A stretch of 47,932 nucleotides of DNA from a virus. The position numbers were made by a program, and so were the translations under genes. Under the pieces are notes generated by a model. The model saw only the letters and a program-made list of their open reading frames with translations, did not search any database and was not told the origin of the DNA. Positions 1 through 47,932 of this stretch are shown here, one piece after another; the stretch's first letter is position 1; each line of letters begins with the position of its first letter. The stretch covers positions 1 to 47,932 of the IMG/VR virus record IMGVR_UViG_3300048838_000562. One strand, 5' to 3'.

Positions 1-1222
1 GTGAATATTCTCCAGGAATAGACTTTCTCTTCTGTAGTCTATAATTGTTGTATTCGTATACTCTACCCCTATCACCTGCTATTGCTAATAATCCATTATC
101 AAGCTCTAGGAATGTATGAATAGATCTTTCTTTTACTGGGTCAATGAATATTGGTGCCTCAGAGAATGTATCCCATACCGCCACTTGTACCTCTTCTACT
201 CCGTTGTCTACATGAGTTCCTATTATTAAGTCTGTTCCAGGGGATTTACCTAAACATTTAATCCTATGAGGTTCTGTAAGGTCCAACGCCCAATTAGTGA
301 ATATATGTACTCCCTCATTCTCTCCCACTTGGTGAATGTAATGTCTATCTGCAAGGTATAGGGTTTGATTCTGTATCTTCATTTGATGATAATCGGGGTC
401 CCCTAATGTGAAAATCTTCACACTCCCTTGTGCTAAATCATTCCCTGTTAGTGTGTTCATTGTCCCATCCGCTACAGTTGAATGTATGTGTATGTGATAA
501 TTCAAACTTCTATCAACTGTTAGCTGAGTAGTCCAAAGTAAATAATTCCATCCATTAGCTAAACTAGCATTTGTAATTGTTTTAGAGGTGATAGAGTTGT
601 TATCTTCATCATGAAGTGTTATTGTCCAGTCTCCAGTACCTTTAGCCAATACCTGTATTCCAATCCCATATTGTATTCTTTCATGGAAATTAATAGGGAT
701 TTTATGTGTTTCTCCCTCATTAACAGATGTTTGAAGAGTGTATGACTGTCCAGTTCCTCCCATTTCTTCCTGGTCTAAATGTAACTCTCCCCAATTCTCC
801 TCCTTGTCTGTAGAGAATGTAGCTATCTTGTCTATTCTTATCCTATGAGTATAGTTTTGTGTAGCCCAATATAGATAACCATCGTACTCACAAGCTCCGC
901 TACATCCTGCACTACCATTTGTAGGGGCTGTTGTATCGAGTAGGGTATAAGGACTACCTTCTAACCATATCTTCCCTGATGAACTACTGAAGAACAATAC
1001 TTGTCCAGTTGATAGTGCAATTGACACTTTACAAAATTCTGTAACAACTGTACTACTTGCCTTAACTGGTGCTTGATTGACTCTAATTTCTCCAGGAACT
1101 GAATGAAGGTCTAGTCCAACTGCCTCAGCAACTGAATTAGGTGGTCCCTGAAAAATACTTTCTGCAATTCCTCCCGAATTGATATTCTTAACCTGAATGA
1201 AACTTGATTGTTTTTCTGCCAT
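1..1222 (-). CDS. Tail or virion structural protein, version A, 3' end cut off by the window
   Basis: The frame opens at the ATG at 1222 and runs without a stop to the window edge, giving 407 codons. It aligns residue by residue with the first two thirds of the complete 605-aa protein at 40672-42489, with few substitutions apart from the first seven residues. No domain is recognised by name. The sequence is rich in beta-strand-like stretches, glycine and aromatic residues. It lies directly downstream of the large tail protein gene (16 bases between), so a role in tail or receptor-binding structure is inferred from context. The missing C-terminal third is a window or assembly edge, not a mutation. 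Confidence 0.85.
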   Translation of the reverse strand, partial: MAEKQSSFIQVKNINSGGIAESIFQGPPNSVAEAVGLDLHSVPGEIRVNQAPVKASSTVVTEFCKVSIALSTGQVLFFSSSSGKIWLEGSPYTLLDTTAPTNGSAGCSGACEYDGYLYWATQNYTHRIRIDKIATFSTDKEENWGELHLDQEEMGGTGQSYTLQTSVNEGETHKIPINFHERIQYGIGIQVLAKGTGDWTITLHDEDNNSITSKTITNASLANGWNYLLWTTQLTVDRSLNYHIHIHSTVADGTMNTLTGNDLAQGSVKIFTLGDPDYHQMKIQNQTLYLADRHYIHQVGENEGVHIFTNWALDLTEPHRIKCLGKSPGTDLIIGTHVDNGVEEVQVAVWDTFSEAPIFIDPVKERSIHTFLELDNGLLAIAGDRGRVYEYNNYRLQKRKSIPGEYS

Positions 1223-1238
1223 TATTTTATTTTAAGAG

Positions 1239-4200
1239 CTAAATTTTGGTCCATAAAGACGATTCTTTCTCCGTCTTTGTATATATGCTAGGTGTTACAG
1301 ATTCTTCTCTTGTATAACTACTCGCTGTTACAGATTCAGTTTTAGTGTATGTGCTTGATACTCCTTCATCTTTTGTGAATGAGTCTGAACTTTCTGCAGG
1401 ATGTTTTATCCATATCCCTATTTTTTCGCCGATAGTATACATTAAATCCTTAGAAATGCTATGCGGTGCATCTACCCTATATCTCAACTCATATTGTTTT
1501 GTAGTCCTTTGTACGATGATATATTCAAGTGCTTTCTCTAGAGCTGATGGTGTGATGGCGATTGTATACTGAAGGGCTTGTTCAATTGATTGTGGTGCTA
1601 TGACTGTATACTCAATTCCTTTCGTTATTGCTGTACTACCCATAACCGAATAATCAGCATCTTTCTGAATTGTGCTTTCAAGCAGAATATTATAATCAAG
1701 GTCGGTTGTTGTGCTTGTTGTTGTTACTATTGCATAATCAAGGTCTTTCTGAACTATTATTGAAGGGACATCGATAGAGTAGGTAACTCCCTTCTGAATA
1801 GTTGTACTTACTTGCAAGTTATAATTGATATCTTTCTCTACGTTCGTGGTGATTGATATGTAGTAGTCTACATCCTTTTGTATATCACCCTCAGTTATGA
1901 CTCTATAATCTAATGCCTTGTCCTGGTCGATGGTAGTTATAACCGAATAATCAGCATCTTTCTGAATACCTGTAGAACCTTTTATAAAGTAAGTTACATC
2001 CTTCTGTATAAGTTTAGGAATTACTATATGATAATCAAGGTCTTTTGTAATATTCTGCTGAGATTCAACTGTATAAGTTAAATCTTTTGTTATGGCGGTA
2101 GAGGGCTGTACTGCATAGGTTAAGTCTTTTTGAATAGTCCCTTCTGTAACAATGAAATAATCCAGGTCCTTCTGTGCAACTATATTTGTGAGGATTGTAT
2201 AATCTAAGGTGGCTTGTACTTTTTCAACTCCAGTAACTACAACCTCATAAAGCATACTCTTCTGTATTAACCCTTCTGTAAGGATTGTATAGTCAAGGTC
2301 TTTGTTTGTACTATCAGTAATGATGATAATATACTCCAGGTCCTTTGCTACACTATCAGAGATGCGAACTGCATAATCTAGTTCCTTCTGTAATGCTGTT
2401 TCTGTTTTTATGAAATAATCTACATCCCTTTGTATTTGAACATCTGTTATAACTTGATATTCCAAACCTTTTTGAATAGCGGTATCTGTAACTATAGAAT
2501 AGTCTAGGTCCTTTTGGATTGTTTCGGTTGTTGTTACTATAACCTCATACACTAAACCTTTAGTGATTGTATTTTCATCTACTATGCTATATTCCAGGTT
2601 CTTTGTAATAGAAGAATCAGTCTTAATTCTATAGGCAATACTTTTGGTAATAGAAATTGATTGTTGTACCTTGTAGGCTAGATCCTTTGAAATTGAGATT
2701 GAGGATGTTGTACTAATCTCTTCTTGAGAACCAATAACAAAGAAGGTAGAAGGGGACGATTGATTATTGTATTCTGTTGAAATCCAGGTACTTGATAGCG
2801 CCTCCCATACTATCCTTACTTCGTCTATTATCCCATCGAAGGGAGCAAAAATTGAGGTATTATCATTTGCTGTATATGCTCCAACTCTAAATGGATTAGT
2901 AGATTGAAAATCTTTTCCATCCCAACTAGAAATACTTGCTGATGTAGCATCACCCGAATCGGTGTACAAAGTTAGGTTTGCACTCCTATCAAATACTGCA
3001 TGTACCAGATGAAAGCTCCCATCATTAACTGTTACTGTACCAGAAGGTATTACATCAGACCCTCCATCCCCCTGCATAAAGCCTGAGAATTTCCCTGTGC
3101 TAATTGTACGTATTCCGAACCTGTAATTCTGTGCAGCCGCTAATGCTTTTGATACAATAAATTGCGATGCTGGACTAGCGGTTGTTTTTATCCATGCTGA
3201 TATTGTTAAGTCGTTTGTTCCTAAATCTAATATATCTCCTCCAGATAAATAATCAGCACTACCATCAAACTCTTGAGCTTTACTCGGCAATTGTCCCGCC
3301 TGTTCGGTCATTGCCATACTAACCCCTGTTAAATCACTATCATTAGCTGTGCTATCTATATAGCCTCCTGAGGTAGTATTAACCGCCTCCCCTAAATGGT
3401 AGACTGCTTTATAGGCACTCTTCCATACATTTTCGGCTCCGTATGTACCATCGATAGCATAATCACTAGCAGAGGAGTTGCCATAATAGATATAGAAATC
3501 CGTATCAACTGTAGAGCTAATATCCCCCTTGAAGTGTAATTCTCCAGTATCAGTAGTGGAATTGTAGAAAACCACTTCACGTGGTACTTCAGTAGTACCA
3601 TCATCTTCAGTAACTCTAATATCCCCACCATCGGATTTAACGTTTGTATGAAATCCTGCGGGTAAGTCTGATAAATCTACATAGATAGGAAAGTCGGTTA
3701 AGTTAGCATCAACCTGGTCAGCATCTACTGTTATTTTAACTCTATAAATCCAGTTAGTATCGTACCATCCAGTTACCACATAAGATAAACCTTTAGTAAT
3801 TGCAGTCTCGGTTTTAACTAGATAATCTAAATCTTTATTAATAGCTGTAGTTGAGGTTCCTGCATCTACCTCATAGGCTAAACCTTTTTGTATTGTATAT
3901 AAATAACCCTGAAAGGATAATCTAGGATATCTAGCTCCATCTATAATATGCCATACTTCGGTAGTATGTGTTGCCTGTTCTTCTATATCCCATGCCGAAA
4001 ATGTAGTGATATCCTTCATCTCAGATGTAGTCTTTCCAGTACCCCCATCACTAGTGGCTTCTCCTGATGTTTGTGTATCCCAATAACAGTTTGTAATACC
4101 AACAGAACCTACACCCTCATTCTGTCCACAAAAACCCCCACTATTAGTAACACCTGTAACCGAACCAACGGAGTAGCAATTTTCTATTGTTGCCTCGCCA

Positions 4201-6299: not shown

Positions 6300-6940
6300 G
6301 TTTCCCTCCTTCTTTGCCAACTATCGTTATTCGGGTAGATATTCCTTTCGGTTTCCTCATAAGATAGTCGGGAATATTTTCCTCTATCGCTAATGGTGTT
6401 ATCTAACGCTGGAGCTAATTTATCTGGTACTAGAATAGGCTTTAATCCATGATCGACTCCAAGCCTTACTAATTCATGATGATCACCAAGTAATTCATAA
6501 TTCTCGTTATAACCACCCATATTTATAAAGTCTGTTCTCTTTACAATAACTCTACCTCCAGCTCCATGAGAGGAGCCATGAGTTATAAAAGGCGGTTGTG
6601 TAGCGATTAATTCATCCATCCACTCCAAAAACTCTGTAGTGAGGATGTTATCTGCATCAAGGTTACAGATATAATCACCAGTAGCGTAGGAATGAGAGAG
6701 GTTTTTAGATTTAGCCATATTGAAGATTGGTAAATTCTGTTTCACTTCATATATCAATTTACCTGTTCTAATATAATCCCTTAACTCTGTTCTAACCCAT
6801 TGCTCCATATCATCGGGTGAATCGTAATTTAGTAGAACGAAATTGTATTTAGGATCATTCGCTACATCCAGGTTGTTCTTGTATACCTGTTTTAGATATT
6901 TTGTGTACCCTTTGTTTGCTGTACAGAATGTAATACTCAT
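6290..6940 (-). CDS. GT2-type glycosyltransferase (galactosyltransferase-like)
   Basis: A 216-aa GT-A fold glycosyltransferase. It begins with a short beta strand (MSITFCTANKGYTKYL) typical of family 2 enzymes, carries the metal- and nucleotide-binding DxD motif in CNLDADN (about residues 93-97), and has the acceptor-side motif GGYNENYELLGDHHELVRL common in galactosyltransferase-like C-terminal regions. The length suits a compact soluble enzyme with no membrane segment. The start codon directly follows the stop of the 130-aa gene, and the end overlaps the start of the tail protein gene. It may glycosylate the adjacent tail protein or modify host surface sugar; neither is shown. Version B of the locus keeps only the first five or so codons (46415-46456). 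Confidence 0.85.
   Translation of the reverse strand: MSITFCTANKGYTKYLKQVYKNNLDVANDPKYNFVLLNYDSPDDMEQWVRTELRDYIRTGKLIYEVKQNLPIFNMAKSKNLSHSYATGDYICNLDADNILTTEFLEWMDELIATQPPFITHGSSHGAGGRVIVKRTDFINMGGYNENYELLGDHHELVRLGVDHGLKPILVPDKLAPALDNTISDRGKYSRLSYEETERNIYPNNDSWQRRRETWQ
6305..6311 (-). promoter_or_regulatory. Strong ribosome binding site AAGGAGG
   Basis: AAGGAGG lies five bases before the ATG at 6299. It is one of very few good Shine-Dalgarno matches in the window. It also encodes Arg-Arg at the end of the glycosyltransferase gene, so the match could be coincidental. Confidence 0.5.
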
Positions 6941-7333
6941 CTACTCCAGCTGAAAATTAATATGAAAATCTTTATTACTAGTAGTGATTAACCTACCATC
7001 TGGAAGTAGTACGTTTATTACTACTCCTGTACTTGTTTCATATCCAAAGCATGTAATTCTAATGTGTGCGGTAGTTGCACCCTTAACTACTAACGTTCTA
7101 TAGAAATGAATTAACTTCATCGTTGCGGGGTCAAACTGAAGGTCATAGGTTTGATTAGTGGTGTTATCCAATATCCTAAATACCATAAGTTTAGATTGTT
7201 CAATCTCTTTGAAGTAATGATAGGATTGTGTATCTGTATCGAATTGGTTTAATGAGGTGTTGTCATCATAGAAGGCTATCCATACGAATCTTTCCAGGTC
7301 TATCTGTTTACCACTTGAGTTAGTAAATTCCAT
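6941..7333 (-). CDS. Conserved phage protein of unknown function, 130 aa (version A)
   Basis: No named family is recognised. The protein is mainly beta, with no signal peptide or membrane segment, and ends by describing a strand-rich fold (VVINVLLPDGRLITT). It is nearly identical to the product of 46457-46849, with about eight substitutions over 130 residues, so it is under constraint. It sits between terL and the variable receptor-binding genes and abuts the glycosyltransferase start without a gap. The strict position beside the tail block suggests a virion or assembly role, by inference only. Confidence 0.8.
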   Translation of the reverse strand: MEFTNSSGKQIDLERFVWIAFYDDNTSLNQFDTDTQSYHYFKEIEQSKLMVFRILDNTTNQTYDLQFDPATMKLIHFYRTLVVKGATTAHIRITCFGYETSTGVVINVLLPDGRLITTSNKDFHINFQLE

Positions 7334-7363: not shown

Positions 7364-7588
7364 TTAGAGTATTTGTACATCTTCTGATTTAACCGCCTCA
7401 TCTATATTAAGGTTTTTGGATTGATTGAGATTTATTCTGAAAGGTTCCCCCATGTTTTTATATATAGTTACATTCCCAAAACTCAATTTTCTCAACTCTA
7501 GAATTAATGTAGCCTCATATATCGATACCTTCATAACACACTCTTTCTGACTCAATAGTTTCCTTTCAGGTGTTTTAGACTTTGGCAT
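7364..7588 (-). CDS. Small conserved protein, 74 aa (version A)
   Basis: The start MPKSKTPERKLL at 7588 is chosen because version B (46880-47104) can only start there; an upstream ATG at 7624 lies within terL. It overlaps the terL stop by 14 bases, which suggests translational coupling. The protein is short and basic at the N-terminus, then mixed alpha/beta, with no recognised domain. The two versions differ by a single residue near the N-terminus. Confidence 0.75.
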   Translation of the reverse strand: MPKSKTPERKLLSQKECVMKVSIYEATLILELRKLSFGNVTIYKNMGEPFRINLNQSKNLNIDEAVKSEDVQIL

Positions 7589-10022
7589 ATGGATCTGAAC
7601 TATAAGAATTAGAATTATTATCAATTGAAGATGGCTTTACGTATGGTGTGAATTGAACGTTCTCTAATAAAATTCTCCCTAAATCCTCTATTAGGTGGTC
7701 ATCTTTATCCATTGGTGTTTCCTTTTTGGACCTATATTCAGCAGACTTACCTCTCCACTCATCCCATAAATAGTGCATAATTTCATATTTTAATCTTGTA
7801 CAACTACTGAATATATAAAGCTGTGGTGAAGTGATAAACTGGTCCCCGATTTTTTGATAAGATAGATAATCACCTATTCTTTTGATAGCATCCAATCGCC
7901 TTTTACTACCTGCCTCAAAATCTAATCCATGCTCGTAGTACAATTCATCAGCTAAGGATGCATATTGTCCCTGTCTTAAATCTCTGTGTTGGTCCTGGTT
8001 AAAAGCGGCTGGTTCAATAAGTTTCTTTACCACTCTATAATTAGATCTCTTTTGTTTTATCTTGAAAGCAAGTTGAGATGTTGTGTTATTCTCGAAGGAT
8101 TCGTCTATAACAAAGTGTTGTCCTTGTTCGTTTATTGCTACATAGAGTAAAGCATCAGGAACTCTTGGATGTGTATCTAATGCCTCAACTACAACATAGT
8201 TATATATATCTATATCAAATGGTTCTATTACATGGATTTGTGGCTGGAATTGTTTGAATACTAAACCTGTTAAGTGCTGGAATTGTCCCTTCACTCTAGC
8301 TTGTTTATCTTCCTCGCTGAACTGATTTACTATTCTCTCAATGTCTTTGTGTTTAAGAAAACCCCTCACCCCATGTTCAATACAATTTCCTGCAATTACT
8401 GGAGTTTTAATTTGGGGATTTCTGACAATAATATAACCATCTTCAACTGTTACGCATCTTACTTCTTCTGGTTCTATGCTATATATTTCTGGTTTTTTCT
8501 CTACATATATCGTTTGTTTACCCTTTATAATCCTAACACTATAATAGCCACCAACTCCTCTCAATACTTTGTTTTTAATTTTTCGTGTTTTATTTAGACT
8601 ATAATGAATAGTGGTTTTATAACCTAAACTCATGCCTAGTCTTTGAACATCATCTGCAAGACGTATTGATGCAGTCCTATATCTAAATGCTTTTTCACTC
8701 TCATCCCCATCACCTAAAACTAAGGATTTTAGAAGGAGTTTTCTATATTTTTCATCAGAGTTGAAAACGTATTCTGGTAAATATTTTGTAGTCGCAGTTC
8801 CTAGTATTGATAATGAGTTATGTAGGTCTTTATCGCATATCCAATAATCGCCCGACTTCTTCTTCTTGAACTTAACTTGTAAATTACTTAAAAAATCCTC
8901 AAGTTCTATAACCTTTGTGGTTTGTGATATTATAACTTGATTGTGATTATTAGTTCCTGATTTTGATCCTTCCGTACACCCTTCAGATATAAACCAACCT
9001 AAGAACTCAGCCCATTCGTAAGGGGTAAATCTGTTATCTTGAGAAAGATTATTATATTCTCCACCTAAGTAAGTCCGATCTAATAATCTATTGCCCCGAT
9101 ATAATTGTTGTGCTTTCACTCGGTGTATTTTCCCATCATCTCTAATCGCTGGAAATTCGTGATCGGGAGTACAGACAATACCATTATTCAAATCTACAAA
9201 TTCTTGACGAGATTGTTCGACCAATCTTGTGGCGTACTTAAAACTATATTTGGAATTTTCAATGTCTACACTCGCAAATTTATCTGTTTCTATGTCAATA
9301 TTTTTGAAAGACTTCCAGCCTTTGTCTGTTAATATTTCCATCCACAAAGGGAAACATGCATCTTCCATCTCTGCTGTACTCCAGTATCTCTCTCCCTCAT
9401 CATTATTCTGATTAGCGATAATATCATCATAAATCCAGGCGGAACCAGCTAGAGGAGTCATGAATATACCAATAATACCCCCACGCCTCATACGTGATAC
9501 TGTGGCTTTATAGATTGGTTCTGGTGGTGGTTCGTCAAATAAACACCAACCTAATGTAATTGACTCAAACTCTTTAACTGCTTGATCGTAACTCATAATA
9601 TCGAAAGCCCATCCCCCCTCTATCTCCCAATGGTAGTAGTAATTCTTTCCCATTTTTTCACGCTTATAGGTACCAGGAATTAACCACTCCTCTAACATAG
9701 GTATTATTGTTTCTTTAATGGTCGTTGGTTCAGATACTATCCTTCCACGCTTTAATGAGTATGGATAATCTTGAAACAACTTTTGATGGAAATAAGAGTT
9801 TTTAGTGGGATAGAACAGATTTGCTAAGATATTACCTATGAGGGTAGTTTTCCCAACACCATTAGCGGCACTAAGAACTGAAACAAAAAAGTCGCATGAA
9901 CCAAAATTGTTTAAGAACTCTTCAACTTTACCAATAGGCTCATAAAATCTATATTTCTCCTCTTTTCTCCTGCGGATTGTTTCTATCATTAACTCTTTGT
10001 AAGTGTATGTATTTGATTTCAT
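7575..10022 (-). CDS. terL: Terminase large subunit interrupted by an intein
   Basis: DNA-packaging motor and nuclease, 815 codons including a 324-aa intein; the spliced protein is about 491 aa. N-extein ATPase: Walker A SAANGVGKTT at residues 51-60, Walker B GWCLFDEPP at 158-166, and coupling motif IFMTPL near 186-191. C-extein nuclease: first acidic motif in VEALDTHPR, and a last acidic site in DKDDHLIEDL. The intein sits just after the ATPase motor, before CIEHGVRGFL, in a conserved part of the terminase. The start at 10022 is six bases after a late promoter -10 box, so the mRNA may be leaderless. It heads the minus-strand late operon and works with terS (19138-19533) and the portal. Confidence 0.95.
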   Translation of the reverse strand: MKSNTYTYKELMIETIRRRKEEKYRFYEPIGKVEEFLNNFGSCDFFVSVLSAANGVGKTTLIGNILANLFYPTKNSYFHQKLFQDYPYSLKRGRIVSEPTTIKETIIPMLEEWLIPGTYKREKMGKNYYYHWEIEGGWAFDIMSYDQAVKEFESITLGWCLFDEPPPEPIYKATVSRMRRGGIIGIFMTPLAGSAWIYDDIIANQNNDEGERYWSTAEMEDACFPLWMEILTDKGWKSFKNIDIETDKFASVDIENSKYSFKYATRLVEQSRQEFVDLNNGIVCTPDHEFPAIRDDGKIHRVKAQQLYRGNRLLDRTYLGGEYNNLSQDNRFTPYEWAEFLGWFISEGCTEGSKSGTNNHNQVIISQTTKVIELEDFLSNLQVKFKKKKSGDYWICDKDLHNSLSILGTATTKYLPEYVFNSDEKYRKLLLKSLVLGDGDESEKAFRYRTASIRLADDVQRLGMSLGYKTTIHYSLNKTRKIKNKVLRGVGGYYSVRIIKGKQTIYVEKKPEIYSIEPEEVRCVTVEDGYIIVRNPQIKTPVIAGNCIEHGVRGFLKHKDIERIVNQFSEEDKQARVKGQFQHLTGLVFKQFQPQIHVIEPFDIDIYNYVVVEALDTHPRVPDALLYVAINEQGQHFVIDESFENNTTSQLAFKIKQKRSNYRVVKKLIEPAAFNQDQHRDLRQGQYASLADELYYEHGLDFEAGSKRRLDAIKRIGDYLSYQKIGDQFITSPQLYIFSSCTRLKYEIMHYLWDEWRGKSAEYRSKKETPMDKDDHLIEDLGRILLENVQFTPYVKPSSIDNNSNSYSSDPYAKV
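8385..9356 (-). other. Intein with LAGLIDADG homing endonuclease inside terL
   Basis: The element spans residues 223-546 of the TerL open frame. It starts with Cys1 in CFPLWMEILTDKGWKSF (block A) and has the block B motif TPDHEF. It contains two LAGLIDADG-like helices (LGWFISEG and KSLVLGDGDES), consistent with a DNA-cutting homing domain. It ends with VIAGN before the +1 residue Cys547. The penultimate residue is Gly, where most inteins have His. The terminal Asn and the +1 Cys needed for splicing are present. The version B terL also contains the last ten residues of the same element before the window ends. Confidence 0.92.
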
Positions 10023-12733: not shown

Positions 12734-14260
12734 TTGAGGGCTTTCGTATTTACTAGAGTATCAACTCCAGACCAAAGCGATAATTTCTCCATCCCTTCAC
12801 AACTCAAAAGGGTATATTCCTACCTTGAAAAAAACGACCTCTTCATACAATCTCCTAAAGATATTTATCAAGTTGTAGAAACTGCAAGTAGAAGGCATGA
12901 ACGTAAAACCTTCAAAGAGATGTTGAAACGTGTTGATGAACTAAACTCCGTTGTAGCATTAGTGTTTGATACCATTGATAGAGGTATGCGTAACTTCGGA
13001 GATAGTGTAGCACTCGATGATTTACGAAAATCCAATAAAATAGAGGTCCATTTCATAGCAGAAAATCTAGTTATTAACCAGGACTCCAGGAGCCATGAAT
13101 TGTTAAGATGGGATATGGGAGTAATGTTTGCTAAAAGCTATGCACTATCCGTTTCTGATAACGTAAAGAAGGTTATTGGGGAAAGGATTTCTAAAGGCTT
13201 ATCACTTGGTAAAGCCCCCTACGGATACAAAAATGTACCCAATGATATTGTAGTAGATGATTTTGCATCTAAGGTGGTTCAGAAGATTTTTAATCTCTAT
13301 GCATATGATGGTATGTCCATTAGAGAGATTGTTCAGTCTCTTAAAGAAGATAATGTAAAGCTAGTGAGTAGTAAGATAGGTAGAATTTTAATGGATGACT
13401 TTTACATAGGAATTGCTACATATAAGAAAAAGAATATTAAATACAAGCATGTTTATCCTCAAATAATATCTGAAGAACTCTTCAGGAAAGCAGAGGATAT
13501 CAGGTCCAATAGATTAATTAATCCAGTTAAACTCATGGGTAAAATCAATTTCATATATCGGGGATTGATAAAATGCTCCATCTGTGGGTGTTCAATGGTC
13601 CCCGAAAGACATAAAGGCTTTCACTACTATAGCTGTAGTCAGGGCAGAAAAAAACACGCTGTAAGCTATGTCAGAGAGGAAATATTAACAGAGCAGATAG
13701 CAGAGGCACTCAAACAAATAAAGATTAAGCCTCAACTAGCATTGGAACTTAAAGAAACCATTAAGAAAACTAATAATGATAGAGCTGGTTATTCTGAAGA
13801 TCTAATTAAAGAACTCCAGGATAGAAAAATCAAACTAAGGAATAGACTTTCCAAAATGTATGATGAATATCTTGATGAGAAGATATCTAAAGACCTCTAC
13901 GATGTTAAGTATGCTGAATACTCTAATGAGATTAGAATGATTACTACAAAGCTAAAGAATATTGATTTAGCGGATAAGAATTTCTTTACAACTGCCAATA
14001 AAATTGTCGAACTTTCACAAGAGGCTCACGAACTATTTTTACAAGAAGGAGAAGAAAATAACGCCGATAAATCGAAAATTGTGAATCTTGTACTATCGAA
14101 CCCTAACTGGGATGGTGTAAAACTGCACTATGATTATAAAATACCCTTCTCTACATTAGTGGAAATGAACCAGCGTCCTACATGGGGTGCCTTATGGGAC
14201 GTGTTTAGAACTGGGATAATGAGCTTAAATCGGGACTTCACCTTCTTCTCTTTAACATAA
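12734..14260 (+). CDS. Large serine recombinase (integrase)
   Basis: A 508-aa recombinase. The start is TTG, chosen because it places the catalytic serine at residue 10 in TRVSTPDQ, the usual distance from the N-terminus, and no ATG is available there. Domains: resolvase catalytic domain (about 1-145), recombinase DNA-binding domain (about 160-265, GKAPYGYK), zinc ribbon (Cys281, Cys284 and later Cys near YYSCSQ) and a coiled coil (about 345-440). Large serine recombinases insert phage DNA at a specific attB site and need a separate directionality factor for excision. The attP site is usually next to the gene; candidate palindromes lie at its 3' end. The early operon downstream runs towards it. 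Confidence 0.92.
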   Translation: MRAFVFTRVSTPDQSDNFSIPSQLKRVYSYLEKNDLFIQSPKDIYQVVETASRRHERKTFKEMLKRVDELNSVVALVFDTIDRGMRNFGDSVALDDLRKSNKIEVHFIAENLVINQDSRSHELLRWDMGVMFAKSYALSVSDNVKKVIGERISKGLSLGKAPYGYKNVPNDIVVDDFASKVVQKIFNLYAYDGMSIREIVQSLKEDNVKLVSSKIGRILMDDFYIGIATYKKKNIKYKHVYPQIISEELFRKAEDIRSNRLINPVKLMGKINFIYRGLIKCSICGCSMVPERHKGFHYYSCSQGRKKHAVSYVREEILTEQIAEALKQIKIKPQLALELKETIKKTNNDRAGYSEDLIKELQDRKIKLRNRLSKMYDEYLDEKISKDLYDVKYAEYSNEIRMITTKLKNIDLADKNFFTTANKIVELSQEAHELFLQEGEENNADKSKIVNLVLSNPNWDGVKLHYDYKIPFSTLVEMNQRPTWGALWDVFRTGIMSLNRDFTFFSLT

Positions 14261-15461: not shown

Positions 15462-16358
15462 TTATTCGTCTATCTTGATTTCATCAGGATCTATTACATC
15501 TGATTCATTCTCTTCTTCGGGAACCTCTTCTTCATCCTCTTCACCTAATAGGTAAAACTCTCTTTCCTTGTATAATTTGCTCAATTCTGAAAGCTGGGAT
15601 ATATCAATCTTCATATCCTTTTTCAATGTCTTAATCATCTCTCCCACCTTCTCTAGGTCCGATTGTCTAACTGCTATCTTTATTCTTAGTCTCAATTTCT
15701 GCATCTCATCTTCGGGCAATGTCTCATAATCTTTTTTGTGTACTACTTCTCCTTCAGTAGCCTCTTCTTTCTTCTCTGTAGCCTTTCCGTTGTGCTTATG
15801 TATCATCTCTGATTGGTCCATCTCTTCACTTGTGTATAATCCTCCCAACTCTTGTGGAAATGCTTTTCTTAATGCTATTGCCTCTGCACACTTTCCTAAC
15901 ATTAGGAAGGGCATCTTATCCCATATAAAACCCTTGTTTGGTCCTGGATAATATGAATCCCATACTACAGTAGATGTGAAAGGTACTCTCTCTCCGTTCA
16001 CTAATCTATAGACTGTAGCTGTAGCGGTTAGGGGGCGTTTATCTCCACTCTTTAATACCTCATACTGAGATTTATTATCATTGAAACTATAATCATCATT
16101 CCCTGCATATTGTCCTGTTCTCTCCGCTATTAATCTGTACCCATCTATTGAGGTTATAAAGCTCACCTTCGGTCCTGATTTAGTGTTGTACTTAGTAAAG
16201 TGTAGCTGTCCTGCTAGTGGGTCTAACTGAGTCCTCTTAGCTTGATATAAAAACAACTTTAGTTCATTATCTGTAGAACCAGTTGCTATCGTGTTCTTAA
16301 TTAGTTCGACCTCTTGTGGTATGTATTCTTTAACTGTCGCTAATTGTTGGTTATCCAT
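15462..16358 (-). CDS. bet: Bet/RecT-family single-strand annealing protein
   Basis: About 298 aa; the ATG at 16358 is preferred, with an alternative two codons upstream at 16364. It shows the Bet family hallmarks in order: DPLAGQLHFTKYN, SFITSIDGYRLIAERTGQYAG, the YRLVNGERVPFTSTVVWDSYYP strand region, and MPFLMLGKCAEAIALRKAFPQELGGLYTSEEM (about residues 150-185). A flexible, strongly acidic C-terminal tail (about 265-298) is usual in annealing proteins. It pairs complementary single strands in phage recombination, normally with a 5'-3' exonuclease. No exonuclease is recognised in this window; the 94-aa gene upstream, which overlaps its start, is the nearest partner candidate. Confidence 0.93.
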   Translation of the reverse strand: MDNQQLATVKEYIPQEVELIKNTIATGSTDNELKLFLYQAKRTQLDPLAGQLHFTKYNTKSGPKVSFITSIDGYRLIAERTGQYAGNDDYSFNDNKSQYEVLKSGDKRPLTATATVYRLVNGERVPFTSTVVWDSYYPGPNKGFIWDKMPFLMLGKCAEAIALRKAFPQELGGLYTSEEMDQSEMIHKHNGKATEKKEEATEGEVVHKKDYETLPEDEMQKLRLRIKIAVRQSDLEKVGEMIKTLKKDMKIDISQLSELSKLYKEREFYLLGEEDEEEVPEEENESDVIDPDEIKIDE

Positions 16359-16635
16359 TGGCAATATTTTTGAATTTAAGTTTAATGTTTTGGTCCTCTA
16401 ACCATTGTTCTAATGAATCAGCATGTATACATCTCCTGTTGTAGGTATTATGGTTAACCTTTCCGAATTGGAATTGAAAAATCTTCCTCTTCTGCTTACC
16501 TACTATCCCTAATTGCTTTGTAGCTATCAGAAATAATAGTTGTTTAGCTAATTCAATTTGAGAAGATCTTATACTCTTCTTTCTTGATTTAGCCTCCCTT
16601 AACGTCATCTGTTGCCAGATATCTCTTATTCCCAT
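16351..16635 (-). CDS. Basic protein of unknown function upstream of bet, 94 aa
   Basis: Very rich in Lys, Arg and Gln, and mostly helical (SRKKSIRSSQIELAKQLLFLI), with a possible nucleic-acid-binding character. Its end overlaps the start of bet by about eight bases, so the two are probably translated together. It is much too short for a lambda-Exo-like exonuclease and shows no nuclease motif. Confidence 0.6.
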   Translation of the reverse strand: MGIRDIWQQMTLREAKSRKKSIRSSQIELAKQLLFLIATKQLGIVGKQKRKIFQFQFGKVNHNTYNRRCIHADSLEQWLEDQNIKLKFKNIANG

Positions 16636-40402: not shown

Positions 40403-40675
40403 TTAAACTTTCCCAATATACATCCTATCTGTAGTACCATCATTCCAGGTCATGTTTCCGTTTATATCCATCCTGAATGGTGCTGTAATAAACGTTCTAC
40501 TACCACTCCATAAACCCTCTTTTCCCATTTTAATACTTGCTGAACCCTCTCCAATTGTTAGCTTTCTTGTGTTTGAAAGAAAATTGTTCTGGTCCCCTGA
40601 CTGAATGTCCTGGTCCCTCTCCATCGGATTAAAATCTCCAATATCAGTAAACACTTTGTTATTAATTATTTTCAT
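40403..40675 (-). CDS. Small tail-region protein, 90 aa
   Basis: A short, mostly beta protein (MGKEGLWSGSRTFITAPFRMDINGNMTW). The ...ITAPFRMDINGNMTWNDGT ending is typical of phage structural modules at the tips of fibres. It overlaps the 605-aa gene end by four bases. Function is inferred only from position. Confidence 0.6.
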   Translation of the reverse strand: MKIINNKVFTDIGDFNPMERDQDIQSGDQNNFLSNTRKLTIGEGSASIKMGKEGLWSGSRTFITAPFRMDINGNMTWNDGTTDRMYIGKV

Positions 40676-42489
40676 GCTATTTCAACTAATAATTCTTCAA
40701 GTATGGGGGCATTGTTCCCACTTGTTGTAAATGAAACTTTAATCTGCATAATATTAGCCTTCTCTTCGTTGTGGCTAACCATCATGTAATTGTCGGTGTC
40801 GTTACGAACATCATTCCAGCTAGAATATGAACCATATCGGATACTCTTCTGTACTCCTATGTTTGTATTAGCGGGTAGTGATTTGTAGGGTAGATATATA
40901 TTTTTGAATACGTCTCTATAGATTCTACTAATGAATAATGCTCGTGTAGTAAAATAGGCTCCGTTGAGTTTAGTATTATAATCTAACTTGTCTACACCAT
41001 AAGAGGAGCCATTTTTCCATGTTATATACAAGTCGTTACCTTTAGCAAGTAAACTTCCTATCTCTATATTACTAGTAACAAAATCACTTCCACTTCTTTC
41101 AGATATTACAAACTCAAGGTTTAGTATGAATGGATAGGCTGGATTTTTACTTCCATAACTGTAAACTCCTTGTTTGCATGGATTACCTGTCCCATTAGAT
41201 ACTCCCCATATTGGCAAACCATCTAATACTGTACCTGCCTCAGGATGAACTGTTACATACTTTGATGGTGAATATTCTCCAGGAATTGACTTTCTCTTCT
41301 GTAGTCTATAATTGCTGTACTCGTATACTCTACCTCTATCACCTGCTATTGCTAGTAATCCATTATCAAGCTCAAGGAATGTATGAATAGATCTTTCTTT
41401 TACTGGGTCAATGAATATTGGTGCCTCAGAGAATGTATCCCATACCGCCACTTGTACCTCTTCTACTCCGTTGTCTACATGAGTTCCTATTACTAAATCT
41501 GTTCCAGGGGATTTACCTAAACATTTAATCCTATGGGGTTCTGTAAGGTCCAACGCCCAATTAGTGAATATATGTACTCCCTCATTCTCTCCCACTTGGT
41601 GAATGTAATGTCTATCTGCAAGATAAAGAGTTTGGTTCTGTATCTTCATTTGATGATAATCAGGGTCCCCTAATGTGTAAATCTTTATACTACCTTGTGC
41701 TAAATCATTCCCTGTTAACGTATTCATTGTTCCATCTGCTACAGTTGAGTGAATGTGAATGTGATAATTCAAACTCCTATCAACTGTTAATTGAGTGGTC
41801 CAAAGTAGATAATTCCATCCGTTTGCTAAATTAGCGTTAGTAACTGTTTTAGAGGTGATAGAGTTGTTATCCTCATCATGAAGAGTGATAGTCCAATCTC
41901 CAGTACCTTTAGCTAAGACTTGTATACCAATTCCATACTGTATTCTTTCATGGAAATTAATCGGTATTTTATGAGTTGCTCCTTCGTTGATTGATGTTTG
42001 TAGTGTGTAGGATTGTCCAGTACCTCCTATTTCTTCTTGGTCAAGGTGTAGTTCTCCCCAGTTCTCCTCTTTATCTGTAGAGAATGTTGCTATTTTGTCA
42101 ATCCTGATTCTATGTATATAGTTCTGTGTAGCCCAATATAGATAACCATCATACTCACACGCTCCGCTACATCCTGCACTTCCGTTAGTGGGGGCTGTTG
42201 TATCAAGAAGTGTGTAAGGACTTCCTTCTAACCATATTTTGCCCGATGAACTACTGAAGAATAATACTTGTCCAGTTGATAGTGCTATTGCCACTTTGCA
42301 GAACTCAGTAACAACTGTGCCACTTGCTTTAACTGGTGCTTGGTTTACTCTAATTTCTCCAGGTACAGAATGAAGGTCCAATCCAACTGCCTCAGCAACT
42401 GAATTAGGTGGTCCTTGAAATATGCTTTCTGCAATACCCCCTGAATTAATATTTTTTACCTGTATGAATTTTGGTTCATTTGTTGCCAT
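40672..42489 (-). CDS. Tail or virion structural protein, 605 aa (version B, complete)
   Basis: Complete counterpart of the partial gene at 1-1222. It is beta-rich throughout, with Trp- and Gly-rich repeats (GYLYWATQNYIHRIRIDKI, LADRHYIHQVGENEGVHIFTNW) that suggest a beta-propeller-like fold of the type seen in phage tail-tip proteins. No signal peptide. It is separated from the 871-aa tail protein by 16 bases. It is the first gene outside the swapped segment on this side and so may be the constant partner onto which variable tail proteins dock. Confidence 0.7.
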   Translation of the reverse strand: MATNEPKFIQVKNINSGGIAESIFQGPPNSVAEAVGLDLHSVPGEIRVNQAPVKASGTVVTEFCKVAIALSTGQVLFFSSSSGKIWLEGSPYTLLDTTAPTNGSAGCSGACEYDGYLYWATQNYIHRIRIDKIATFSTDKEENWGELHLDQEEIGGTGQSYTLQTSINEGATHKIPINFHERIQYGIGIQVLAKGTGDWTITLHDEDNNSITSKTVTNANLANGWNYLLWTTQLTVDRSLNYHIHIHSTVADGTMNTLTGNDLAQGSIKIYTLGDPDYHQMKIQNQTLYLADRHYIHQVGENEGVHIFTNWALDLTEPHRIKCLGKSPGTDLVIGTHVDNGVEEVQVAVWDTFSEAPIFIDPVKERSIHTFLELDNGLLAIAGDRGRVYEYSNYRLQKRKSIPGEYSPSKYVTVHPEAGTVLDGLPIWGVSNGTGNPCKQGVYSYGSKNPAYPFILNLEFVISERSGSDFVTSNIEIGSLLAKGNDLYITWKNGSSYGVDKLDYNTKLNGAYFTTRALFISRIYRDVFKNIYLPYKSLPANTNIGVQKSIRYGSYSSWNDVRNDTDNYMMVSHNEEKANIMQIKVSFTTSGNNAPILEELLVEIA

Positions 42490-42505: not shown

Positions 42506-45121
42506 TTAAATTTTGGTCCATGAAGACGATGTTTTTTCAGTCTTCGTATATGTGCTAGGTGATACAGACTCTTGTTTTGTATAACTACTCGCTGTTACTG
42601 ATTCTTCTTTTGTGTATACACTTGATACTCCCCCTTCTTTTGTAAATGAATCAGATCTTTCTCCAGGATGTTTTATCCATATCCCTATTTTTTCGCCGAT
42701 AGTATACAATAATTCCTTAGAAATGCTATGAGGTGCATCTACTCTATATCTCAACTCATATTGCTTTGTGGTTCTTTGTACAATGATATATTCGAGTGCT
42801 TTCTCTAGAGCGGATGGAGTGATTGTTACAGTATATTGAAGGTCCTGTTCAATTGATTGTGGAGATATGATTGTATATTCAATCCCTTTAGTTACTGCTA
42901 GATTTCCCCTAATTGAATAATCTAAATCTTTCTGTATCGTATCTTGAAGTACAATATTATAATCTAGATCGTTGGTTATACTTGATGTTGTGATTACTAC
43001 ATAATCTAAATCCTTTTGAATTATTATTGAAGGTACATCAATAGAGTATGTAATTCCTTTTTGTATCGTGGTACTAACTTGAAGGTTATAGCCTAAATCT
43101 TTCTCTGTATTTGTTGTTATTGATATATAGTAGTCTAAATCTTTTTGGGTATCATTCTCGTTTATAACCCGATATTCTAGAGTTTTGGTGTTATCGTTGG
43201 ATGTTAAGATTGAATAACTTAAATCTTTTTGCGTATCTGTGGTAACTCTCGTGAAGTAGGCAAGGTCTTTTTGTATGAGATCGGGAATCACTACTCTATA
43301 ATCCAGGTCCTTTGTATTATCGTTTTGAGATTGAACTGTATAGGTAGAATCTTTTGTAATTGTTGTAGAGGGCAGTACTGCATATGCCAAACCCTTTTGA
43401 ATTATCCCTTCCGTAACTATGAAATAGTCTAGATCTTTCTGTGCTGATACACTTGTGAGGATTGTATAATCTAAAGCGGCTTGAATTTTTTCAACTCCAG
43501 TAACCACGACTTCATACAATATACCCTTCTGAATCAAGCCTTCTGTAATAACAGTATAATCAAGGTCTTTATTTGTACTATCCGTTGTGATGACAGTATA
43601 ATCTAAATCCTTAACTACACTATTGGAAGTGAGAACTGCATAATCTAAATCCTTTTGTGTGGATGTACCTGTCTTAATGAAATAATCGAGATCCTTTTGT
43701 ATTGTCTCCGTTGTGGTCGCCATTACCTCATATGCCAAACCTTTTTGGATCCCTAACTCGTTTCTAATTCTATACTCAAGATCTTTTAGTATTATTCCTG
43801 AAAATACAAAGTATTCTAATAGTCTTGTACCACCATCTTCTAACAATCTGCGATCAGAGTCCTCAAGAAGCCTGTATCCACTAGCGTTCTTTGGCTGAAT
43901 ATCATAATTTAAAGACTTGGTTATCCCAATCTTTCTATTTATTGAATACTCCAAATCTTTTGTTATACCTATATGACTTGTTGAGTCTACAAGTACAACT
44001 GCTGTTCTACACTTACTTGATGCGGGAGTACTACTAGAGGAAATTGACATAGTAGCAATATCTCCCAATGTAAAGACCGTTCCAGGACTATCTATTTCCG
44101 CATCCGTATTGGTGCCAGTAATACTTACATAGGTATCAGTATCTACTCCATTCTTCCTTATTCTGAAGGTCCTACTTTTAGAGGTTCCTGGGGCAGTTGT
44201 TAACTGCACCATAAATCGCTTTACTATAAGATCTCCCGAATAATTACCGTTGTCACTTTCGTCTGCATCTCCTTGATACAAAAATGTGAACCCCTCATTA
44301 TACTGTATCCCCGAATTTGACAATGAATTTATACTTCGTCCCATATAAATAGACTCTCCAGAGACAGAAGGTGTAAAGCCAATACTAATTGAATAACCAT
44401 TGGTAAGAGAAGAAGGGGTATTTGTTGGTGAAATAGCTATGAAGGCGGTATCTCCTTTTGAAAACAAGACACTATGAGTAGTGTCATTACCTGTAAGTTG
44501 AGAACCAGTTATTGTACAAGACAAATCTGTAGCACTACCATTTTTGTATAATGTAAATGTATAGGACTTATTAGTACCAAGAGTTCTTCCACGCAAATCA
44601 ACATACATATCTGTAAATGTACCTGCCGTAGGAATAATAGCTACTACTTCCGTAGAAGAGGCACTATCACTTCCTGAGTGAAGATCCATATAAGTAGTAG
44701 TGCTCGTACTAGGTGCATAATTATGGCTCGTAATTAGTGTTTGAGTTTCGGATTCTTGAACGAGAAGGAATTTAACCTTGGAATCAAGAGTTGCTCCCGT
44801 TTTCTCCAAAAGAAGGGCAAGTGTATCCCCTGCACTTACTAATACCGAGTGAGCAGAATCGGAAGAGCTGGTAGCACTATCCGATATGGTACAAGACAAA
44901 TCTGTAGCACTACCATTTTTGTATAATGTAAATGTCTTACTTGTTCCACTTCCTGGTGCTTCATCTAACTTTACATGAAGGCTTTCGATTATTCCTGAGT
45001 TTGTAACCGTCGATCTTTTTTCAGCTATATATGGAGAAGAATTGTTATATTCGTATATAGAGATAAAATCACCATTTGTGTAGGCACCATTATTTCCTCC
45101 AAAATAATATGACTTTCCCAT
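42506..45121 (-). CDS. Tail/receptor-binding protein with three beta domains and 14-residue repeats, version B, 871 aa
   Basis: Residues about 1-375 form three tandem domains of about 125 residues, each carrying FTLYKNGSATDLSCTI or a variant followed by HSVLxSxGDT. They are unrelated to the N-terminal half of the 1686-aa version A protein. Residues about 380-820 hold about 27 copies of the 14-residue xxxIxKDLxYxI unit, clearly homologous to version A, but with two fewer units at one place. The end has the same YTKxE repeats. The start codon shares a base with the stop of a 41-aa gene (TAATG). Probably the exchangeable host-binding tail protein. Confidence 0.85.
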   Translation of the reverse strand: MGKSYYFGGNNGAYTNGDFISIYEYNNSSPYIAEKRSTVTNSGIIESLHVKLDEAPGSGTSKTFTLYKNGSATDLSCTISDSATSSSDSAHSVLVSAGDTLALLLEKTGATLDSKVKFLLVQESETQTLITSHNYAPSTSTTTYMDLHSGSDSASSTEVVAIIPTAGTFTDMYVDLRGRTLGTNKSYTFTLYKNGSATDLSCTITGSQLTGNDTTHSVLFSKGDTAFIAISPTNTPSSLTNGYSISIGFTPSVSGESIYMGRSINSLSNSGIQYNEGFTFLYQGDADESDNGNYSGDLIVKRFMVQLTTAPGTSKSRTFRIRKNGVDTDTYVSITGTNTDAEIDSPGTVFTLGDIATMSISSSSTPASSKCRTAVVLVDSTSHIGITKDLEYSINRKIGITKSLNYDIQPKNASGYRLLEDSDRRLLEDGGTRLLEYFVFSGIILKDLEYRIRNELGIQKGLAYEVMATTTETIQKDLDYFIKTGTSTQKDLDYAVLTSNSVVKDLDYTVITTDSTNKDLDYTVITEGLIQKGILYEVVVTGVEKIQAALDYTILTSVSAQKDLDYFIVTEGIIQKGLAYAVLPSTTITKDSTYTVQSQNDNTKDLDYRVVIPDLIQKDLAYFTRVTTDTQKDLSYSILTSNDNTKTLEYRVINENDTQKDLDYYISITTNTEKDLGYNLQVSTTIQKGITYSIDVPSIIIQKDLDYVVITTSSITNDLDYNIVLQDTIQKDLDYSIRGNLAVTKGIEYTIISPQSIEQDLQYTVTITPSALEKALEYIIVQRTTKQYELRYRVDAPHSISKELLYTIGEKIGIWIKHPGERSDSFTKEGGVSSVYTKEESVTASSYTKQESVSPSTYTKTEKTSSSWTKI
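44514..44560. repeat. 47-base exact duplication inside the version B tail gene (copy 1)
   Basis: Identical to 44889-44935. It encodes the YTFTLYKNGSATDLSCTI part of the second beta domain, so domain duplication was recent or is maintained by gene conversion. Confidence 0.8.
44889..44935. repeat. 47-base exact duplication inside the version B tail gene (copy 2)
   Basis: Identical to 44514-44560, in the first beta domain of the 871-aa protein; 375 bases separate the two. Confidence 0.8.
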
Positions 45122-45246
45122 TATATAGCCAAATAGATATAAAATGATTGAGCAAGGCTTATCGTTACCCCTCCCCTTGCGGCACTAGCGGCAACATTGC
45201 TTATTGCTGAACTTTCATGTACTACTCTTTTAAGTGTTGTCGTCAT
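45121..45246 (-). CDS. Very small protein before the version B tail gene, 41 aa
   Basis: The frame ATG ACG ACA ACA ... GCT ATA TAA ends in a TAATG junction with the 871-aa gene. The product (MTTTLKRVVHESSAISNVAAS) has no membrane segment. It resembles the 31-aa product at 46319-46414 in size and place before a tail gene. A structural or leader-peptide role is possible. Confidence 0.45.
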   Translation of the reverse strand: MTTTLKRVVHESSAISNVAASAARGGVTISLAQSFYIYLAI

Positions 45247-45306
45247 TTTTTATTATTAATTAACTTACGCCACTTGTAAGGCGGGTGTGGTTTCTAGTTT
45301 TAGGTC

Positions 45307-46302: not shown

Positions 46303-46318
46303 CTTTTTTTGTTAATAG

Positions 46319-46414
46319 TTAAAAGTTATATAGTTTCGATAGCACCGCAATCGACAATGGTGTTTGTCTGATATTGTTACCAGCCGTTCTAAGAATTGTT
46401 GGTTTGTTTGCCAT
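46319..46414 (-). CDS. Very small protein, 31 aa
   Basis: The frame starts at 46414 directly after the stop of the glycosyltransferase remnant and ends 17 bases before the fibre gene start. The product (MANKPTILRTAGNNIRQTPL) is basic. Low support. Confidence 0.35.
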   Translation of the reverse strand: MANKPTILRTAGNNIRQTPLSIAVLSKLYNF

Positions 46415-46456
46415 TTATTTAATTTTTAAATCTAAAATTAAAAATGTAATACTCAT
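46415..46456 (-). pseudogene. Remnant of the glycosyltransferase start in version B
   Basis: ATGAGTATTACATT is shared with the glycosyltransferase gene of version A (6940 downwards). The reading frame then diverges and stops after 13 codons (MSITFLILDLKIK). The exchange breakpoint lies at about the fifth or sixth codon, so version B lost the enzyme by replacement. Confidence 0.75.
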
Positions 46457-46849
46457 CTACTCCAATTGAAAATTAATATAAAAATCTTTATTACTAGTAG
46501 TGATTAACCTACCATCTGGCAGAATTACATTTATTACTACTCCTGTACTTGTTTCATATCCAAAACATGTAATTCTAATGTGTGCGGTTGTTGCACCTTT
46601 GACGACTAAAGTTCTATAAAAGTGAATTAACTTCATTGTAGAAGGATCAAACTGAAGGTCATATGTTAGGTTCGTGGTATTGTCCAGTAACCTAAATACC
46701 ATAAGTTTGGATTGTTCAATCTCTCTGAAATAATGATAGGATTGTGTGTCTGTGTCGAATTGACTTAATGAGGTGTTGTCATTATAGAAGGCTATCCATA
46801 CGAATCTTTCCAGGTCTATTTGTTTACCACTTGAGTTAGTAAATTCCAT
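46457..46849 (-). CDS. Conserved phage protein of unknown function, 130 aa (version B)
   Basis: Counterpart of 6941-7333, with about eight substitutions such as Asp to Asn and Ile to Leu. Its stop adjoins the glycosyltransferase remnant. Beta-rich, no named family. Strong conservation next to a swapped block suggests a function independent of which tail protein is present. Confidence 0.8.
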   Translation of the reverse strand: MEFTNSSGKQIDLERFVWIAFYNDNTSLSQFDTDTQSYHYFREIEQSKLMVFRLLDNTTNLTYDLQFDPSTMKLIHFYRTLVVKGATTAHIRITCFGYETSTGVVINVILPDGRLITTSNKDFYINFQLE

Positions 46850-46879
46850 TGTATTGTCTTAATAAATAAAATTGTATTT

Positions 46880-47104
46880 TTAGAGTATTTGTACATCTTC
46901 TGATTTAACCGCCTCGTCTATATTGAGGTTTTTAGATTGATTAAGATTTATTCTGAAAGGTTCTCCCATATTTTTATATATAGTTACATTGCCAAAGCTT
47001 AATTTCCTTAACTCTAGGATTAATGTAGCCTCATATATAGATACTTTCATTACACACTCTTTCTGACTCAATAGTTTCCTTTCGGGTGATTTAGACTTTG
47101 GCAT
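46880..47104 (-). CDS. Small conserved protein, 74 aa (version B)
   Basis: Counterpart of 7364-7588, differing by one residue (Thr to Ser in MPKSKSPERK). It overlaps the terL stop by 14 bases, as in version A. Confidence 0.75.
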   Translation of the reverse strand: MPKSKSPERKLLSQKECVMKVSIYEATLILELRKLSFGNVTIYKNMGEPFRINLNQSKNLNIDEAVKSEDVQIL

Positions 47105-47932
47105 ATGGATCTGAATTATAAGAAATAGAATTATTGTCCATTGAAGATGGCTTGACGTAAGGTGTGAATTGCACGTTCTCTAATAGAACTCTACCTAAGT
47201 CCTCTATCAAGTGGTCATCCTTGTCCATTGGTGTTTCTTTTTTAGATCTATATTCTGCTGATTTACCTCTCCACTCGTCCCATAAGTAGTGCTGAATTTC
47301 ATACTTCAATCTCGTACAACTACTAAAGATATATAGATTAGGGGATGTAATGAACTGGTCCCCTACTTTCTGATAGGATAAATAGTCTCCAATCCTTTTA
47401 ATAGCATCTAGTCTCCTTTTACTACCTGCCTCGAAGTCTAAACCATGTTCGTAATACAACTCATCTGCTAAGGATGCATATTGTCCTTGTCTTAAATCTC
47501 TATGCTGGTCCTGGTTAAAAGCGGCTGGTTCAATAAGTTTCTTAACCACCCTATAATTAGACCTCTTCTGTTTTATCTTGAAGGCAAGTTGAGATGTTGT
47601 GTTGTTCTCAAAAGATTCATCTATAACAAAGTGTTGTCCTTGTTCGTTTATTGCTACATAGAGTAAAGCATCGGGAACTCTTGGATGTGTATCAAGAGCC
47701 TCAACTACAACATAATTATATATATCTATATCGAATGGTTCTATTACATGGATTTGTGGCTGGAATTGTTTGAATACTAAACCTGTTAAATGTTGGAATT
47801 TTCCTTTCACTCTAGCTTGTTTATCTTCCTCGCTGAACTGATTTACTATTCTCTCAATGTCTTTGTGTTTAAGAAAACCCCTCACCCCATGTTCAATACA
47901 ATTTCCTGCAATTACTGGAGTTTTAATTTGGG
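47091..47932 (-). CDS. terL: Terminase large subunit, version B, 5' part beyond the window
   Basis: The frame runs unbroken to the window edge. It holds the whole C-extein nuclease domain from CIEHGVRGFL (VEALDTHPR acidic motif, DKDDHLIEDL) and the last ten residues of the intein (QIKTPVIAGN) before the junction. It differs from the version A protein by few residues. The missing ATPase and most of the intein are probably the same sequence as 8417-10022, if the genome is circular. Confidence 0.9.
   Translation of the reverse strand, partial: QIKTPVIAGNCIEHGVRGFLKHKDIERIVNQFSEEDKQARVKGKFQHLTGLVFKQFQPQIHVIEPFDIDIYNYVVVEALDTHPRVPDALLYVAINEQGQHFVIDESFENNTTSQLAFKIKQKRSNYRVVKKLIEPAAFNQDQHRDLRQGQYASLADELYYEHGLDFEAGSKRRLDAIKRIGDYLSYQKVGDQFITSPNLYIFSSCTRLKYEIQHYLWDEWRGKSAEYRSKKETPMDKDDHLIEDLGRVLLENVQFTPYVKPSSMDNNSISYNSDPYAKV
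47806..47932. repeat. 127-base exact end match to 8290-8416
   Basis: The last 127 bases are identical to 8290-8416. The base before them differs (t at 47805, c at 8289). The distance between copies is 39516 bases, the implied length of the version B circle. Confidence 0.9.

Follow-up and report, generated by a model that had tools for sequence, protein, structure and literature searches.

Two allelic adhesin cassettes beside the tail nozzle gene on one assembled podovirus record

The window, i.e. the whole stretch of DNA analysed here, is a complete IMG/VR virus record of 47,932 bp, which is classed as linear. Comparison of this sequence with itself by BLAST disclosed just two pairs of long repeats, which both lie on the plus strand: positions 1-2436 match 41268-43703 with 84% identity, and positions 6927-8416 match 46443-47932 with 91% identity. 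Between the pairs lie 4.35-4.49 kb in one version (A) and 2.69-2.74 kb in the other (B), without mutual similarity. The proposal of a first-pass annotation, that shared flanks surround an exchange of about 4.35 for 2.69 kb, was confirmed by these two pairs and their unrelated interiors. The features of both versions are listed in Table 1.

The same annotation had assigned to version A a GLUG/DUF2341/LamG adhesin and a glycosyltransferase. GLUG is above the Pfam cut-off in this adhesin, and the glycosyltransferase is recognised by Pfam too (PF10111). DUF2341 and LamG are slightly under the cut-off and are backed by alignment to proteins found at the equivalent place in relatives. For version B, a fibre and 'three other beta domains' had been announced. 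A fibre-like protein of 331 residues is indeed present, but the three domains are diverged copies of a single one, with pairwise scores of 154, 102 and 106 (shuffled versions of one pair reached at most 59). The structure prediction for the 331-aa protein was of low confidence (pLDDT 47) and was left unused.

The 605-aa protein encoded beside the adhesin gene had no match in Pfam or PHROG. Its AlphaFold model, made with 17 relatives, had a mean pLDDT of 78, and the best Foldseek matches of this model were the tails of HRP29 (7e-11) and T7 (6e-10), further nozzle or hub matches being with Pa223, Kp7, E1004, P22, Sf6 gp8, the PhiM1 nozzle and the SU10 tail. The protein is thus predicted to fold like the tail nozzles of podoviruses (T7, P22, Sf6, SU10), though its sequence identity to solved nozzles is only about 9%, and a search of PDB sequences with nozzle and adaptor profiles gave nothing credible. 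The window shares with SU10-like and T7/P22 podovirus tails, besides this nozzle fold, the portal and adaptor families of SU10: its portal matches SU10_portal (PF23899), and SU10_adaptor (PF24175) was found on 5 of 15 homologues of its adaptor (best 8e-10), not on the window's own adaptor. The nozzle of the window also has an extra domain of ~130 residues (about 140-275), which is absent from its nearest relatives.

Elsewhere the window encodes a RecT single-strand annealing protein and a large serine recombinase. The latter being an integrase, the phage is probably temperate and would, equipped with both proteins, meet prophages of its own kind. About one fifth of the record (27278-36406) is taken up by a 3042-aa protein with almost no Pfam match, a P-loop (GGPGSGKSS) and a peptidase-like AHEIGH motif, which is probably a polyvalent internal virion protein. 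A 707-aa protein (38172-40295) contains an H-type lectin domain (PF09458) and, encoded outside the exchanged cassette, is a further candidate for an attachment protein. Tandem repeats of 18 bp (ACTAGTGAAGAAAA) are found at 18148-18381, within a replication protein O-like gene.

Table 1. Positions of the cassette, flank and other phage features in the window.
Feature	Position	Strand	Remarks
Tail nozzle gene, version A copy	2..1222	-	cut by contig start; 84% nucleotide identity to 41268 onward; dN/dS 0.04
Version A adhesin, 1693 aa	1239..6320	-	GLUG, DUF2341 and LamG-like N-terminal part; repeat stalk; C-terminal tail
Version A C-terminal tail	1239..1415	-	[WFY]-T-[KR] repeats; candidate docking motif
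Version A stalk	1415..2675	-	repeats of about 14 residues; A/B homology fades within it
GT2 glycosyltransferase, 216 aa	6290..6940	-	PF10111, 5e-10; version A only
14-nt stretch ATGAGTATTACATT, version A	6927..6940	-	true glycosyltransferase start
130-aa conserved flank gene, A copy	6941..7333	-	dN/dS 0.05
Large terminase with LAGLIDADG intein	7575..10022	-	PF14528, PF14890; phrog_5653
127-bp stretch	8290..8416		exactly equal to last 127 bp of contig; graph rejoin point; first mismatch at 8289
Large serine recombinase/integrase	12734..14260	+	PF07508, PF00239, PF13408; phrog_95, 4e-59
RecT single-strand annealing protein	15462..16364	-	PF03837, 1.2e-28
Tail adaptor gene, 251 aa	24643..25398	+	directly before variable slot in relatives; family matches PF24175
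Tail nozzle, 605 aa, complete version B copy	40672..42489	-	fold predicted by AlphaFold and Foldseek
Version B adhesin, 871 aa	42506..45121	-	three copies of a beta-rich domain, then stalk and tail as in A
Version B C-terminal tail	42506..42682	-	used in tail motif comparison
Version B stalk	42683..43924	-	same as that of A; used in A/B comparison
Fibre-like protein, 331 aa	45307..46302	-	phrog_1197 tail protein; similar to cyanophage fibre chain 8i4m_e; version B only
14-nt remnant ATGAGTATTACATT, version B	46443..46456	-	identical to glycosyltransferase start; right edge of exchange in B
130-aa conserved flank gene, B copy	46457..46849	-	used in A/B dN/dS comparison
Large terminase, B copy	47091..47930	-	cut by contig end within intein
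Contig end	47806..47932		identical to 8290-8416; closes circle 8417-47932 (39,516 bp)

Both alleles were found on one assembled record, and the contig ends were compared with their second copies. The last 127 bp are repeated exactly inside the contig; at the local mismatch rate, a run of this length has a probability of ~4e-6. The graph rejoins cleanly at this end only: the first 127 bp of the contig differ from the other copy at positions 20, 48 and 53, indicating that A differs from the trunk beyond position 1 too. A k of 127 is used in JGI assemblies; a literature search for their k list found none. The assembler metaSPAdes breaks contigs at points with several paths and leaves end overlaps equal to the maximal k, and k=127 is in use (PMC10914622). 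With the exact 127-bp overlap, the record is best understood as a walk round the graph of a circular or circularly permuted phage genome of ~39.5 kb. The closed unit has the size of its relatives (39.6, 39.0, 39.2, 39.8 and 39.9 kb), most of the complete or near-complete ones measuring 38.9-40.8 kb. The walk would start on the branch of strain A (1-8289), proceed along a trunk common to the strains (8290-41267) and return by the branch of strain B (41268-47805), to stop where B rejoins the trunk at 8290. In this podovirus population, B would then form a closed unit of 39,516 bp, to which A offers an alternative allele over at least 8.3 kb. The allele of the second strain would be an extra start of the walk. 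This points, with good confidence, to variation between co-occurring phages of the same sample as the source of both versions, rather than to tandem duplication or switching. The identical stretch covers the C-terminal splice site of the terminase intein, and intein homing may have contributed to the identity of the strains in this part. In contig L005, the terminase match is split at the same region as the intein of the window.

We considered the possibility that the two cassettes lie on one molecule as a stable tandem duplication, for instance two lineages joined in a concatemer or a tandem pair of related prophages. Such an arrangement would account for a single contig in which the two versions recur about 41 kb apart, and the serine integrase suggests a temperate phage. 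Yet the exact end overlap is the mark of a graph rejoin, every core gene is single-copy, genes of the duplicated region are cut at both contig ends, and the unit is as long as in the relatives (39-40 kb), which makes this explanation very unlikely.

The genes for the nozzle, the 130-aa protein and the terminase differ between A and B by a dS of 0.50-0.60 and a dN of 0.02 (dN/dS 0.03-0.05), the ratio for the stalk being 0.17. Such low ratios at a dS of ~0.5-0.6 exclude chance as the source of the homologous flanks, and the dS and dN values rule out sequencing error and recent duplication. Both alleles are old and functional, and they have diverged under purifying selection. These findings also bear on the possibility that unrelated phages were joined by mis-assembly and that the exchange itself is not real. 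Chimeras do occur among contigs from short-read metagenomes, and the trunk may be a mixture of the two strains. However, the genes are intact and under strong purifying selection in both alleles, those for the nozzle, the 130-aa protein and the terminase are collinear in both, and a like swap was observed between independent contigs (L084/L085 and L068/L069, see below). We consider a mis-assembly of this type unlikely.

Identity of the flanks rises outward from the cassette, up to 95-99% on the left and 100% on the right. The boundaries had been described as sharp. This held for the right edge, at 6927/46443, but not for the left one, where the position given, 2575/43755, is an approximate border: identity falls gradually, from ~80% to background, between 2436/43703 and about 2590/43860, in the region encoding the protein repeats. 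Homology at the right edge extends 14 nt beyond the stop codon of the 130-aa gene. In B, these 14 nt (ATGAGTATTACATT) open into a dead frame of 13 codons, so that either the glycosyltransferase was replaced in B or the gene of A was joined at this edge. The right edge is a non-homologous joint and bears no mark of a recombinase site. Thus, the site-specific recombination sites that had been suggested at the edges were not borne out, the left edge fading in a repeat array and the right one lying 14 nt inside a gene.

A programmed switch between A and B in one genome, through an invertible segment, a shufflon or a diversity-generating retroelement, was also considered. Serine recombinases drive tail-fibre inversion in some phages, and this phage encodes a serine recombinase. 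The latter, however, matches integrases best (phrog_95), and a flank dS of ~0.5 is beyond what a local switch would cause. Unlike in an invertible or shufflon tail-fibre switch, neither inverted repeats flanking the cassettes nor alternative ends were found in the window, which also contains no inverted copy of any cassette part and no second copy of either cassette, and none of the annotated ORFs was recognised as a reverse transcriptase. A programmed switch is therefore extremely unlikely. DNA inversion, a retroelement and tandem duplication were set aside by self-BLAST and the search for inverted repeats.

To see what occupies this place in other phages, relatives were collected from IMG/VR, 16 through alignment of the nozzle protein and 262 through alignment of the capsid, of which 80 were kept. 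Their gene order is portal, capsid, adaptor, slot, nozzle, p90, p449. The interval between adaptor and nozzle, fully visible in 26 loci (23 distinct contigs), is a hypervariable slot: its length ranges from 8 to 6796 bp (median 3.7 kb), and its gene content differs in nearly every locus. Nine of its 77 proteins have LamG-like lectin domains, others being collagen-repeat or DUF2341 proteins, glycosyltransferases, methyltransferases or HNH endonucleases. DUF2341 and LamG resembling those of version A occur in the slots of L033, L028, L064, L101 and L007, and L025 and L081 share its layout, with a glycosyltransferase and a LamG adhesin immediately preceding the nozzle. The fibre family of version B was found in L006, L085, L029, L094 and L062, homologues of the 331-aa protein sitting in the slot of the first four. 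Two close pairs differ by a swap: L084/L085 exchange about 1.6 kb for 0.75 kb between flanks that are mostly 78-92% identical, and L068/L069 exchange 2.2 for 2.0 kb between flanks of 90 and 75%, ending at the nozzle start. Other cassettes, which the first-pass annotation had advised seeking in related contigs, are thus present as different genes between adaptor and nozzle in 23 contigs, and these slots and the two pairs support its idea of a natural exchange of host-recognition genes between conserved flanks. Glycosyltransferases or methyltransferases lie in or beside the slot of L025, L081, L094, L101, L012, L020, L008 and L015; their recurrence suggests self-encoded glycosylation of tail proteins in these phages.

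In the window, the block formed by slot, nozzle and p90 with its neighbours (36523-46849) is on the strand opposite to the adaptor, beside the terminase. Its location away from the adaptor indicates that a rearrangement moved and inverted the cassette module. Scans of viral contigs, a set that may lack the records nearest to the window, with the nozzle, 130-aa, portal and terminase proteins gave no close relative of the window, nor did a degenerate DNA pattern at the intein junction; the searched collection consequently offers no third allele of exactly this locus. A DNA search of phage records with the window found no match, and a prophage search in genome contigs returned only two MAG-binned contigs of ~39.8 kb. 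The Bacillus podophages Page, Pony and Pascal (about 40 kb) have the same genome size and a capsid 36-37% identical, but in the phage records that include them neither the portal nor the adaptor nor the version B adhesin of the window had a match, and the nozzle had two, both in other phages.

For the adhesin before the nozzle, A/B and L068/L069 agree: the C-terminus is retained and the N-terminus replaced. At the end of this adhesin is found a short, repeated motif, W-[TS]-[KR]-x-x-[KR], as in VWTKVAKQTASWVKTAKTTDTWTKVAKSVSSIWTKTEKPY of L084 and VWSRSGRNNTGDWTRSSRNDA of L033. The tail of the window reads IWIKH..FTK..YTK..YTR..YTK..LWTKI; only one unit of the window's tails fits the narrower form used below as a hold-out, and they are included through the looser pattern [WFY]-T-[KR]. 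The strict rule, which was defined after looking at the slot proteins, is matched by 17 of 1,223 complete ORFs in all loci, 16 of them between adaptor and nozzle; the 17th, in L048, follows the adaptor at a contig end, the nozzle being at the other end of that contig. In the full-slot loci, 16 of 400 ORFs have the strict tail, all of them belonging to the 77 slot ORFs (p 9e-13). For a hold-out test, the largest cluster of protein bodies supplied a narrower form, which found L027, L033, L038 and L081. Apart from duplicate copies of L005, its sole further match in 1,391 other ORFs was a protein of L025, and this protein proved to lie directly before the nozzle. Of the 23 slots, 14 have the Trp/Lys repeat, on proteins that otherwise differ; the tail-bearing bodies form six unrelated clusters. 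The tail is both recurrent and specific for the slot. A search of phage records with this short tail gave no match.

With one member of each close pair removed, tail similarity tracked capsid similarity (r 0.59, p <0.0005), whereas similarity of the first 200 residues did not (r 0.20, p 0.10). The contrast is in keeping with co-inheritance of the attachment end and the core, the end that faces the cell being exchangeable. In Mantel tests, the tail followed capsid, adaptor and nozzle together, and in partial correlations the nozzle did not stand out as its partner. Part of the association between tail and core could be due to linkage, as the tail adjoins the nozzle gene. We tentatively propose that the Trp/Thr/Lys tail serves as a common plug by which unrelated, exchanged adhesins are attached C-terminus first to the adaptor-nozzle region, a reverse-polarity mode of receptor binding that would accept almost any domain. 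We know of no earlier C-terminal dock of this kind, and regard it as a possibility that is on balance doubtful. Also somewhat short of an even chance is the alternative that the candidate tail serves in trimerisation or folding, is glycosylated by the glycosyltransferases of the slot or passively hitchhikes with the nozzle gene, which would affect docking and leave the cassette exchange intact. The tail is indeed short and rich in Ser/Thr and Lys, glycosyltransferases recur in the slot, and the nozzle gene is adjacent. Yet hitchhiking alone would not keep the motif on several unrelated bodies, and the tail is also found in slots without a detected glycosyltransferase, e.g. L005 and L084.

Taken as a whole, from the assembly walk and the allelic slot to the exchange, its mechanism and its function, the following explanation is in our opinion likely. 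The allelic region would be a host-recognition slot adjoining the tail nozzle gene, in which each cassette comprises an adhesin and an accessory gene (the glycosyltransferase in A, the fibre in B). Cassettes would be swapped between co-infecting phages or prophages by homology-driven recombination in the flanks, with the nozzle gene and adhesin stalk on one side and the 130-aa and terminase genes on the other, the original junctions having presumably arisen by illegitimate joining. Exchange through conserved flanks would swap whole cassettes, which is consistent with the decay of flank identity toward the cassette. The phage's own RecT might assist this recombination and is a plausible agent of exchange between diverged flanks. 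RecT/Rad52-like proteins recombine diverged DNA and make mosaics of temperate phages (PMC3945230). The present case resembles theirs in the phage-encoded RecT and the diverged homologous DNA flanking the exchange; it differs in that the original edges are non-homologous, the part of RecT being deduced. The N-terminal part of the adhesin would touch the cell while the stalk and the Trp/Lys-rich tail would fix it to the virion, so that any N-terminal domain could be exchanged as long as the attachment end stays. The lectin-like and fibre domains beside the nozzle suggest that cassette exchange changes host range.

Swapping of host-recognition cassettes is already known, and the window is a case with a variant polarity and a candidate C-terminal dock. 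In the metaviromic islands of marine phages (PMC3909814) and the flexible modules of cryoconite phages (PMC7468147), near-identical cores carry interchangeable host-recognition genes, several variants coexist in one place, and terminases vary too. The window similarly has a common core with non-homologous recognition genes at one locus. What differs is that one podovirus lineage here has a fixed position for the slot, between the genes for adaptor and nozzle (in the window this position is displaced), and that the exchange affects the N-terminus of the adhesin. T7-like and Klebsiella phages have modular receptor-binding proteins that are attached by the N-terminus and vary by exchange of the C-terminus (PMC8262889). 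One structural end is likewise conserved here and the specificity end exchanged, but the polarity is reversed in the adhesin before the nozzle (A/B, L068/L069), which lacks a conserved N-terminal anchor of the T7 type; the T7-type polarity does hold for other slot fibres (L084/L085, the 331-aa family).

A puzzling contig thus becomes a clean case of natural variation, and an exact overlap of length k between a contig end and an internal point provides a sequence test for unrolled circular contigs. For a large lineage of uncultured podoviruses, the adaptor-nozzle interval is the place to seek host-recognition genes. If the dock is real, it would explain how attachment proteins of any fold can be exchanged without loss of assembly, and a short motif adjoining the nozzle gene would predict such proteins.
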